A stretch of 64,000 bases of DNA, taken from assembly GCF_900143235.1 (NCBI RefSeq), contig NZ_FRDF01000002.1, forward strand, positions 62,001-126,000, written 5' to 3'. Under the pieces are notes generated by a model that was given only the letters and a program-made list of their open reading frames with translations, did not search any database and was not told where the DNA came from. The stretch comes from Erythrobacter sanguineus. GTDB taxonomy: Bacteria; Pseudomonadota; Alphaproteobacteria; Sphingomonadales; Sphingomonadaceae. The translations under genes were made by a program, and so were the position numbers. Positions 57,376 through 60,319 of this stretch are shown here, in pieces; the stretch's first letter is position 1, and each line of letters starts with the position of its first letter.

Positions 57376-57487
57376 GATGGTCACTATAGGCGCGCAATTG
57401 CCCGCTTGCCACTGTGCTCATCCACACCTATAGGGCGCGCCTTGCCTCGACCCGCGCGGGCATTTGCCCATGCGGGACCGACACGGT

Positions 57488-57564
57488 CGGGGAGTAGCTC
57501 AGCCTGGTAGAGCACTGTCTTCGGGAGGCAGGGGCCGGAGGTTCGAATCCTCTCTCCCCGACCA
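57488..57564 (+). tRNA. tRNA-Pro (CGG)
   Basis: It is 77 nt long including CCA. The acceptor CGGGGAG pairs with CTCCCCG. The anticodon stem CTGTC/GGCAG (one G-U) encloses TTCGGGA with anticodon CGG. The T arm has GGTTCGAATCC. Confidence 0.96.
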
Positions 57565-57672
57565 ATTATCGTCTTGCGAGAAGACGCTTGATCCGGGGCC
57601 GGGCGCGCGGCGTTGCGGCCCATCCGGCGGCCGAAAACCCGCGTGAACCACAGATTATCGGAAGCAGAAACG

Positions 57673-57698
57673 AAAAAAGCCCCGGTTGCCCGGGGCTT
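57673..57698 (-). terminator. Intrinsic terminator of the tiny-ORF unit
   Basis: On the minus strand AAGCCCCGG pairs with CCGGGGCTT around a 4-nt loop (57677-57698), and the transcript then runs into TTTTTT (57673-57678). This is a textbook intrinsic terminator. It lies 19 bp after the stop of the 12-codon ORF and about 110 bp after the larger EAL gene. Confidence 0.88.
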
Positions 57699-57717
57699 CT
57701 ATTCGTTCGGCCGTGCC

Positions 57718-57756
57718 CTAGCGCACGCCGAAAATGTGATAAAACCAACCCCACAT
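57718..57756 (-). CDS. 12-residue micro-ORF (MWGWFYHIFGVR) under tandem CtrA-type sites
   Basis: The ATG at 57756 follows a perfect AGGAGG (57762-57767) with 5-nt spacing. Twelve codons read MWGWFYHIFGVR, then TAG. The peptide is very aromatic, with two Trp, two Phe and a Tyr among twelve residues, and ends in basic GVR. A U-tract terminator follows at once and two CtrA-type sites precede it, so the whole unit of about 150 bp looks self-contained. It could be a membrane-active or regulatory microprotein, a translated leader, or the ORF of a dual-function small RNA. The sequence is too short for ordinary gene callers. I know of no named family. Confidence 0.6.
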   Translation of the reverse strand: MWGWFYHIFGVR

Positions 57757-57789
57757 AGCTGCCTCCTGTAGGTTAAGGACCCACAAGAG

Positions 57790-57804
57790 TTAACACAAAA
57801 TTAA
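57790..57804. promoter_or_regulatory. CtrA-type site A (TTAA-N7-TTAA)
   Basis: TTAACACAAAATTAA is a perfect TTAA-N7-TTAA site followed by CC, giving the TTAAC end preferred by CtrA. It lies 33-48 bp upstream of the micro-ORF ATG, in promoter position on the minus strand. Confidence 0.7.
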
Positions 57805-57806
57805 CC

Positions 57807-57821
57807 TTAATCAAGAGTTAA
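57807..57821. promoter_or_regulatory. CtrA-type site B (TTAA-N7-TTAA)
   Basis: TTAATCAAGAGTTAA is a second perfect TTAA-N7-TTAA site, starting 2 bp after site A. It overlaps the last codons and stop of the CHASE2-EAL gene. Two such sites side by side in GC-rich DNA are very unlikely by chance. Confidence 0.7.
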
Positions 57822-60177
57822 TTGCGATTTGGCTCGTTCCCATCATGACCAGCAGCTCCGACATGGGGATTGCAGGAGCATAGAGGAAACCCTGAGCGAG
57901 ATCGCAGCCCATCGCACGAAGCGCGGCCGCGACAGCCTCGTCCTCGACCCCCTCGGCCACGACGACCTTGCCGAGCGAATGGGCGATCTCAATCGTGGCG
58001 CGCACCACGGCGCGGCTTTCTTCCGAGCTGGCCATATGCTGCACGAATTTCTTGTCGATCTTGAGCTCCGAGCTGGGCAGCTTCTCGATATATTCGAGAT
58101 TCGATTGCCCGGTGCCGAAATCGTCAATCGACAGCGAAATGCCGCGTTGCTTGAGCACCTCGATCTGAGGCGCGATCCGCGCGTCCTCAAGCTTGGCGGT
58201 CTCGGTCAGTTCCAGCATCAGGTTCTCTGCCGGAAAACCATGCCGCCCAAGAACCGTCATCATGTCAAACAGCAGGTGCGTATCGCTCAGGCTCTTGGCC
58301 GACATGTTGATCGCAAGCTTGAATTGCGGATCAAGGGCAATCGCATGCCGCCCTTCCGCGAGCGCCGTTTCCATCACCGCGATTGTCAGCTCGTTGATCC
58401 GGTCATTGGCTTCAGCTGCCAGAACCAGTTCCTGAGGATTGACATAACCGCCCCCCTCAGCATGCCAGCGGATCAGTGTTTCAGCCCCGACAATCCGGCC
58501 TGAAGCAAGATCGACCTTGGGTTGGTAGGCCACACCGATCGAGCGTTCCCTGAGACCTTTTTCGAGCACCCGGATGATTTCGATCCGGTGGTTGCGCGCT
58601 TCCAGATAGGCCGGGTTGTTGATGATGAACCGGACGCCGCGATTGGCTGCCTCGTCAGCCGCCTGCATCGCCTTCTTGATGCGCTGACCCAGCGGCAAGG
58701 CATAATTGGTGTCTATCCCGAGCGCTGCTGAACTGCTGGCCGAGCGCCATTCATGACTGATGATCGTCTTGAGCATCAACGCAAGACCATCGGCATGGCG
58801 ATCAAGACTGACCGGGTCCATGCGCGGGCCAAGCCACACCAGCATATCCCGCTCGAACGCCACATCCCCTGCTTCGCCCGGCCCCTTTACATAGGTGATC
58901 AGTGTGTTGACGAATTCTCCCAGTTCACGTGCGCTCCAGTCTTCCGACATCTCTGCGAGGCTGGCGATCTTGAGCGCATATACATCATGTTCGCCATTGG
59001 CTGTCTCCAGGCTCAAGGCCGTCGTCGTCATCGCATTGACTTCGCTGCTGTAATATTTCTGTGCAAGCCGCCGGAACCCGATGCCCGCGCCGAGCAGGGC
59101 CAACATGGCAGACATGATATCAATATTGACGCCGAGCTCGTCGAAAATCAGCGCAAGGCCCGGCAGGCCGAAGAAAGCGAACCACACCGGTCGGGGCGAA
59201 CGCGACCGCGACCATGCCAGCGATGCAATTGCTATCCCGGCGATGAGGATCGCCGGAACCCACATGAGATCAACCGGCGTGCCGCGCTTTAACGTATGCG
59301 CGCCCAGCACATGGAAATAGACGCCGGGAACCTTGCCGTAAAACGGCAGGTTGTAGAAGTCTGGATTCGCGACGAAGGTGTTGCCGATGACGACATTCTT
59401 GCCTTTGAAGGCATCAACATCAAACCTTCCGTGGAGGACATCGGAAAATCTTGCGGTGGGAATTGTCTCAACCCTGAAAGCATAGTCGGGTCGGTACCGC
59501 GCCAATGGCGTGCCACGATAATCTGAAAGCACAGCGGAAATCGACGGCACATCACGTCCGCCAACCACTATTTGGGTGGGGAAGGTCGAGGAAAGCGCGA
59601 ATGGTGCGCCCCAGCCATCCATCCCTGCCCAGTTCGCCTTGGACCTGAACTGCGGCGCAGGGAGAATCCCGTCGCTTTTCTGTAGCATGGTATCCACCGG
59701 AGATGTTGTGCCCAGCCAGACCTTGCCCCTTTGCGCCTCAAGCGTCTGGGCAAACATGGCATCGGCTGCGGGCGTTTCCGGATCGGCGTGGGCGCGGTCG
59801 AACACCACCTTTTGAGCGCCGGCATCGATCAGACGGTCGATCACCGCGCTGTCATGAAACCGCGAAGGTATGGCAACCTGCAACTCGTCAAGAGAGGCGT
59901 CGTCGATGGCGACCACGACGATATCCTGCGGCGCAGGGCGCAATCGGAGCTGCGCGCGGGCGGCCCGAAAGCCATCTTCCACCGGCAGCGGCAGTTCGAT
60001 CGCCGATGATATAATCCCGAACAGGATCGCAAGGATCGCCACCTTGGTGCGCTTGCGCCGCAGCAGCGCCTCACCCGATTGCTGCGATTTTGGATCACCC
60101 GGCACAGGCGAGGGAACGTCCGCAAAGCCGAAGCTGCGCCGCAGGAATGCCGTCAGTGATGCCAGTGATGAAATCAT
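57811..60177 (-). CDS. CHASE2-EAL protein, c-di-GMP phosphodiesterase with degenerate GGDEF
   Basis: The protein has 788 residues. One membrane helix (about 47-63) leads to a periplasmic CHASE2 sensor domain (about 65-300). Three more helices (about 305-370) follow, then a degenerate GGDEF-like region (about 385-520) without a GGDEF motif, then an EAL domain (about 545-788). EAL residues are present: ETLIR (a variant of EALIR), LAINMS, ELTE, DDFGTG near 684, KIDKKF and VVAEGVED. It is therefore probably an active phosphodiesterase that lowers c-di-GMP in response to a periplasmic signal. Its stop codon lies inside CtrA-type site B. Confidence 0.9.
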   Translation of the reverse strand: MISSLASLTAFLRRSFGFADVPSPVPGDPKSQQSGEALLRRKRTKVAILAILFGIISSAIELPLPVEDGFRAARAQLRLRPAPQDIVVVAIDDASLDELQVAIPSRFHDSAVIDRLIDAGAQKVVFDRAHADPETPAADAMFAQTLEAQRGKVWLGTTSPVDTMLQKSDGILPAPQFRSKANWAGMDGWGAPFALSSTFPTQIVVGGRDVPSISAVLSDYRGTPLARYRPDYAFRVETIPTARFSDVLHGRFDVDAFKGKNVVIGNTFVANPDFYNLPFYGKVPGVYFHVLGAHTLKRGTPVDLMWVPAILIAGIAIASLAWSRSRSPRPVWFAFFGLPGLALIFDELGVNIDIMSAMLALLGAGIGFRRLAQKYYSSEVNAMTTTALSLETANGEHDVYALKIASLAEMSEDWSARELGEFVNTLITYVKGPGEAGDVAFERDMLVWLGPRMDPVSLDRHADGLALMLKTIISHEWRSASSSAALGIDTNYALPLGQRIKKAMQAADEAANRGVRFIINNPAYLEARNHRIEIIRVLEKGLRERSIGVAYQPKVDLASGRIVGAETLIRWHAEGGGYVNPQELVLAAEANDRINELTIAVMETALAEGRHAIALDPQFKLAINMSAKSLSDTHLLFDMMTVLGRHGFPAENLMLELTETAKLEDARIAPQIEVLKQRGISLSIDDFGTGQSNLEYIEKLPSSELKIDKKFVQHMASSEESRAVVRATIEIAHSLGKVVVAEGVEDEAVAAALRAMGCDLAQGFLYAPAIPMSELLVMMGTSQIAINS

Positions 60178-60319
60178 GGAGCGCCTGAAATCCGGATGAA
60201 ACCCAAGTTTTCCCTAGCGGGTAATGGTTAATGCATCACAAACGAAGCGGCTCTGGGCTGGAAACTGGACCCCGACGGGTCGACCTGTCGTCCCCGGGCA
60301 ATGTGCAGCAATGCGGCGG

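Follow-up and report, generated by a model that had tools for sequence, protein, structure and literature searches.

A conserved 12-codon microgene with CtrA-type boxes behind a CHASE2-EAL gene of Erythrobacter sanguineus, a candidate dedicated partner of one enzyme subfamily

The question raised by this locus is whether the short unit that follows a CHASE2-EAL gene in a 64 kb stretch of Erythrobacter sanguineus DNA (the whole of which is referred to here as the window) is a real gene and, if so, what its product would do. A preliminary description had read there a 12-codon ORF, a perfect AGGAGG at 5 nt spacing, an intrinsic terminator with six T residues and a tandem pair of perfect TTAA-N7-TTAA sites, and had taken them together for a small gene missed by annotation. 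All of these elements are present in the sequence (Table 1), and the proposal of a real gene is supported by the retention of the unit at 50 places in the genus, as set out below. An 11 bp hairpin was overlooked in that description; according to RNA folding, the AGGAG of the Shine–Dalgarno (SD) sequence sits in its 3' arm.

Table 1. Positions in the window of the elements of the microgene and of its partner gene
Feature	Position	Strand	Basis
Micro-ORF MWGWFYHIFGVR, 12 codons, stop TAG	57718..57756	-	Read directly; ATG at 57756
Shine–Dalgarno sequence AGGAGG	57762..57767	-	Read directly; 5 nt spacing to ATG
Hairpin CTCTTGTGGGT / loop / ACCTACAGGAG, 11 bp	57763..57789	-	RNA folds
First TTAA-N7-TTAA, CtrA full-site pattern	57807..57821	-	Perfect match
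Second TTAA-N7-TTAA, CtrA full-site pattern	57790..57804	-	Perfect match
Intrinsic terminator, six-T tract	57673..57696	-	Read directly
CHASE2-EAL gene, 788 aa, constant partner of the microgene	57811..60177	-	Pfam

The first TTAA box covers the last codons and the TGA stop of the CHASE2-EAL gene. The two boxes are the only perfect TTAA-N7-TTAA sites in the whole 64 kb, the shuffled window having a mean of 0.01 such sites and two of them in none of 100 shuffles. TTAA is indeed scarce in the window, as had been claimed (18 copies vs a shuffled mean of 38), and the two N7-spaced pairs are there, but the number of copies given for this spot has to be corrected from four to five, the segment 57773–57821 holding five of the 18 with the fifth at 57773–57776. 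A search of both strands between 57550 and 57900 found no sigma-70 consensus promoter. A convergent tRNA-Pro(CGG) gene lies just past the microgene terminator (57488–57564, plus strand), and in an Rfam scan of 57400–58000 the tRNA alone reached its gathering score, the sub-threshold scores (bits/gathering) being 26.8/59 for BcKCsr7, 21/106 for sX12 and 17.5/43 for ncS54. Identity with a known Rfam sRNA was accordingly set low.

A DNA search of 61 genomes gave matches in 17, the window's own included, and the same-genus matches share the anatomy described above; one of the 17, in a genome of another family (G058), showed no microgene on inspection. A covariance model built from 15 of the DNA-search sequences was matched over its full length at 50 places, in 48 of the 114 genomes of the genus, again with the window's own included and with short matches confined to the terminator end left out of the count. 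The check that had been suggested for this locus, conservation of the peptide, the SD sequence, the terminator and the TTAA pairs in relatives, has therefore been run, and the unit kept in these genomes consists of TTAA-N7-TTAA boxes, SD-bearing hairpin, ORF and terminator. Because an SD-like stretch was part of the criteria by which other loci were selected, the presence of an SD sequence in them is not an independent count.

Peptides of 12–16 residues are encoded at all 50 places, mostly of the form MW[GA][WY][IF]xx[LI]FGxR. Statistics were calculated on 47 of the 50, a [FLW]G filter having excluded those of G073, G078 and G105 (peptides MWAWFFELIGTR and, twice, MWAWFYELMGTR), and codon statistics on the 39 ORFs of 12 codons (37 distinct). 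In these 39, W2 and G10 are kept in every case, R12 in 35 and F9 in 31, and the conserved residues use varied synonymous codons. The mean pairwise BLOSUM score of the 39 ORFs was 3.07 in frame vs 1.81 and 1.23 in the shifted frames, and differing codons scored 0.63 vs 0.12 (sd 0.06) when columns were shuffled. The synonymous excess was small (0.209 vs a null of 0.188, sd 0.006, with 0.207 as the top of 200 shuffles) and is weak when taken alone; what is found across diverged genomes is amino-acid conservation in frame, as expected of a translated microprotein. The microgene is very likely real. A promoter pattern was present in 26 named contigs, of which 17 are titled Erythrobacter or Porphyrobacter, three Erythrobacteraceae, two Sphingomonadales and three Alphaproteobacteria. 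The remaining one (L073) is 4 kb long, carries the title of a Hyphomonas metagenome bin and may be mis-binned or the result of a transfer.

The protein encoded upstream has Pfam matches to EAL (1.3e-60) and CHASE2 (5.5e-18), and its EAL motifs look, by their residues, like those of a catalytic enzyme. When its N-terminal 500 residues were used as a query against the 114 same-genus genomes, 51 places in 49 genomes were found, and at 48 of the 51 the microgene follows 848–873 nt past the match on the same contig and strand. The other three are all at contig breaks: in G114 and G023 the match runs to the contig end, and in G086 the enzyme match and the microgene are on different contigs, the latter lying near the end of a contig of 20,181 bases, behind a frame of 206 codons that contains the EAL-type motif ELTE. 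In G112, too, the microgene follows an EAL-type frame, and the contig ends about 1 kb away. Two genomes, G025 (L169) and G013 (L170), hold a second, divergent CHASE2-EAL gene whose product is 36–37% identical to the query, and these paralogues carry distinct microgene copies of their own (MWNWCREFFGVR and MWNWFMERFGVR), so that enzyme and microgene seem to duplicate or move as a pair. As the downstream genes vary between groups of loci, it is the upstream gene that is the constant. The preliminary description was right to place a gene of the c-di-GMP phosphodiesterase type just upstream, but this gene is a constant partner rather than a mere neighbour. It is from the linkage that we infer direct binding of peptide and enzyme. 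Only two partner-specific positions of the EAL region passed our filter, the window differing at one of them, and hence no docking site is evident.

The covariance model also matched 14 genomes from five other genera, in all of which a frame of 496–504 codons ends 70–91 nt before the peptide core; the EAL-type E[LIV]TE motif is present in 14 of these 14 frames and the EAL-type R-W motif in 11. A CHASE2 query gave matches in 60 of 298 genomes of the family, three of them same-genus. Sixty of the 65 match rows were taken (left out were G410 and, as their sequences were already available, G244 and the three same-genus rows), and a microgene was judged present in 45 of the 60 fetched loci, some by eye. 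Those accepted by eye despite missing the motif filter were L097, L099, L105 and L110, filter matches at L126, L141, L156 and L160 were discounted for having no SD sequence or boxes, and the weakest members of the family are L105, L108 and L110. The 51 other-genus loci analysed below exclude L117 and L124, which nearly duplicate L116 and L121.

This microprotein family, which extends beyond the genus and had escaped the preliminary description, is defined by a W-rich core and occurs in 32 genus codes of one bacterial family, or 30 without g47 and g117, which rest on the weakest members. The other-genus peptides are of 11–41 residues, with start codons chosen by the analyst, and often consist of a core such as GFWDWLLGG flanked by a basic N-terminal stretch and a tail rich in Gly (for example MAKRTKQPVRGFWDWLLGGGWN, MTKASQTKFDIWEWLYGKPVLA and MWDWLFGGGYWA). 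The peptide of the window is the bare core of the family. The atypical sequence MKKWPWAGWNW at L110 (G420), W-rich and lacking the G-x-R end, may belong to a distant relative or may have been assigned to the family in error. Scans of Pfam and NCBIfam with eight longer members (22–35 aa) gave no matches at an E value of 1, the 12-residue peptide itself being too short for a profile scan, and plasmid records held no match to a longer family member.

A search that did not presuppose the partner gene was made with a degenerate DNA pattern for GFW[DE]WL, a form which does not cover the core of the window's own peptide. In the 298 genomes of the family, 28 had one match each, compared with four for a reversed control, and this is the count that leans least on the analyst's eye. 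Twelve of the 28 matches are behind CHASE2-EAL genes that had previously been located by coordinates, three are inside long unrelated frames of 318–443 codons, and 13 are in short ORFs behind frames of 763–841 codons, every one of which has Pfam CHASE2 and EAL matches. All 25 short ORFs of this form in the 298 genomes are therefore behind CHASE2-EAL genes, and no orphan was seen. Outside the family, the pattern was matched in four of 142 genomes of the class compared with five for the reversed control, so none was above chance; three of the four are in frames of 34–36 codons. Four class-level places with matches to the CHASE2 part showed no microgene, a weak negative given that the frame picked at L162 is only 125 codons and that the other three have very long branches and may not be EAL proteins.

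A quick tree was built from 95 EAL regions, 73 with a microgene and 22 without, and on it the microgene label required three changes vs about 20 when shuffled. Eighteen of the 22 without a microgene form one group (SH-aLRT 95), a second CHASE2-EAL subfamily that lacks the microgene, the other rows being three distant long branches and L141. The latter (in G292) is closely related to loci that bear a microgene yet has none downstream itself, and looks like a loss. Apart from this one apparent loss, linkage and co-occurrence were as expected of a dedicated regulator of the enzyme. The window's own genome has another CHASE2-EAL gene of a different type (L155; G000:C21:237501-238829), which is without a microgene and is a natural control.

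The boxes upstream of the microgene correspond to the sites given for CtrA in an excerpt of one published account (PMC3692519), a full site TTAA-N7-TTAAC and a half site TTAACCAT. A perfect TTAA-N7-TTAA is present upstream of 87% of 47 same-genus and 12% of 51 other-genus microgenes; with up to one mismatch allowed, the figures are 100% (47/47) and 84% respectively, vs 5% of shuffles. Among 15 CHASE2-EAL loci without a microgene, which are GC-richer (0.62 vs 0.47–0.48), 0% have a perfect site and 7% one with up to one mismatch. The half site TTAACCAT, in either direction, occurs in 17% of same-genus loci, 33% of other-genus loci and 0% of the 15 without a microgene. The genome encodes a CtrA orthologue (79% identity, E 1.2e-119, with a Caulobacter CtrA sequence as the query), and from these patterns the microgene is probably CtrA-controlled, which would entail occupancy of the boxes by CtrA. 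A half-site pattern, TTAACCAT, is also found at 60224–60231 on the minus strand, about 47 nt upstream of the predicted CHASE2-EAL start, and CtrA may therefore control the enzyme gene as well.

A terminator-like hairpin follows 46 of the 47 same-genus and 48 of the 51 other-genus microgenes, vs 2% of shuffles. For the 5' hairpin, RNAalifold on an alignment (A1) in which the window hairpin was misaligned returned a 4 bp stem at the SD sequence with one pair showing changes on both sides; on account of this misalignment, arms were compared instead with their own partners and with those of other species. In the genus, pairing with the own partner had a mean of -10.9 vs -7.8 kcal/mol across species (n=47), and 42 of 47 loci beat their cross mean (p 2e-7, a value that ignores kinship); in other genera the means were -8.9 and -6.8, with 38 of 51 better (p 2e-5, again ignoring kinship). 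Against shuffles, p 0.05 was reached by 36 of 47 loci in the genus and 19 of 51 outside it. The hairpin arms therefore covary. Predicted pairing of the SD sequence averaged 0.77 vs 0.56 in simple shuffles (n=46, one locus of the 47 having no recognised SD sequence), with p<=0.05 in only 12 of the 46 single loci, and several loci prefer other folds. The hairpin may thus gate translation, and such masking of the SD sequence would fail if transcription starts inside the 5' arm.

Our working hypothesis, to which we would give a probability of a little over one-half, is that the microgene encodes a translated, CtrA-set microprotein that is a dedicated partner or regulator of one CHASE2-EAL subfamily. 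The microgene would be expressed as a short unit of its own, with an SD hairpin, a terminator and, where the enzyme gene ends, CtrA-type boxes. Its aromatic peptide would most likely dock at the membrane on the partner enzyme and, raising or lowering it, would set the activity or stability of the latter, while the timing of this tuning would depend on the SD hairpin and on CtrA, itself responsive to the cell cycle or to motility state. Of the 50 genomes with the CHASE2-EAL gene and/or the microgene, 40 have a flagellin N-domain match, vs 32 of the 64 with neither (Fisher p 0.0016, a value that ignores kinship). A role confined to flagella was rejected, the association being incomplete: the system is present in ten genomes that lack a flagellin match.

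The most promising rival has the exported peptide itself as the ligand of the periplasmic CHASE2 domain, the two forming a peptide-signal/receptor pair that drives c-di-GMP breakdown. The strict pairing with a protein that bears a CHASE2 sensor domain is in keeping with it, as is the build of those family members that have a basic N-terminal part, an aromatic core and a variable Gly-rich tail, but the 12-residue form is, judged by eye, too short for a classical signal peptide, and we consider this explanation unlikely. Its boldest version, in which a peptide of only 11–12 residues is exported or delivered to the membrane as the CHASE2 ligand, giving a CtrA-set peptide-to-c-di-GMP pair in a Gram-negative bacterium, is to be viewed with the same doubt. 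Somewhat more doubtful still is a reading in which the RNA itself does the work, as an sRNA under CtrA control lying at the enzyme gene's 3' end, and the ORF is secondary (dual-function). A short unit with hairpin and terminator and the covariation of the 5' hairpin arms would fit such an RNA, yet what the genera share is the peptide core, with differences in hairpin sequence, ORF length and spacer, and in the Rfam scan described above no family other than tRNA reached its gathering score.

An amino-acid-sensing leader peptide of the Trp or aromatic attenuator type would likewise present a short ORF rich in Trp and aromatic residues followed by a terminator, as in trpL. It is nevertheless very improbable here: the microgene of the window is followed by the convergent tRNA-Pro gene and a thymidylate synthase gene and not by one for amino-acid biosynthesis, the downstream frames in other genera are varied (judged from translations only), and the W codons form no run while the FGxR end is kept, no Trp-codon run before aromatic biosynthesis genes having been found in the window and same-genus peptides and in the surroundings of the window gene. 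A small hydrophobic peptide akin to type I toxins, its mRNA masked at the SD sequence, is suggested by the short hydrophobic product and the SD-bearing hairpin but can scarcely be reconciled with a single fixed site behind one enzyme subfamily in 32 genus codes and with the lack of a consensus promoter on either strand of 57550–57900.

Six core peptide strings had no occurrence in the open-access papers searched. No description of the microgene was present in the titles and abstract openings listed for open-access papers on CHASE2 with EAL, on small proteins with c-di-GMP phosphodiesterases, on CtrA in sphingomonads or, among the matches listed, on sphingomonad ribosome profiling and small proteins. 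Genes of 12 codons escape annotation and few are known with a kept function; the present one comes with a built-in test set, namely many species, a fixed partner, a sister subfamily without the microgene and a core of a length suited to synthesis. The CHASE2-EAL subfamily gains a candidate partner. Should the peptide indeed tune that partner, c-di-GMP breakdown would have a dedicated protein regulator of very small size, and CtrA control would be linked through it to c-di-GMP in sphingomonads.

Several known systems resemble parts of this one. MgrB is a small protein regulator of the membrane sensor PhoQ, and it resembles the present case in that a short protein is linked to a single signalling protein of the membrane; regulators of the MgrB type are longer, whereas the peptides described here are of 11–41 residues, have an EAL partner and are only candidates for binding to it. 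The trpL leader of S. meliloti contains a very short ORF with Trp codons, which is matched here by a very short Trp-containing ORF in another alphaproteobacterium. Unlike trpL, the microgene has no downstream amino-acid biosynthesis genes and no run of Trp, and it has a fixed linkage to CHASE2-EAL. In the trpL system (rnTrpL/peTrpL), the leader peptide acts in trans, according to an excerpt of the published report (PMC7298713). In the BluF/BluR system of Escherichia coli, with ycgZ-ymgABC, small proteins likewise share a pathway with an EAL-domain protein, as described in part of the corresponding paper (PMC3509220). By that description, on which alone the comparison is made, the BluF system differs in that a degenerate EAL protein acts on the repressor that controls the small proteins. 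As in CtrA-controlled promoters, putative full-site and half-site patterns both occur upstream of the microgenes, and the two full-site patterns of the window stand in tandem, unlike those of the CtrA-controlled promoters with which they were compared.
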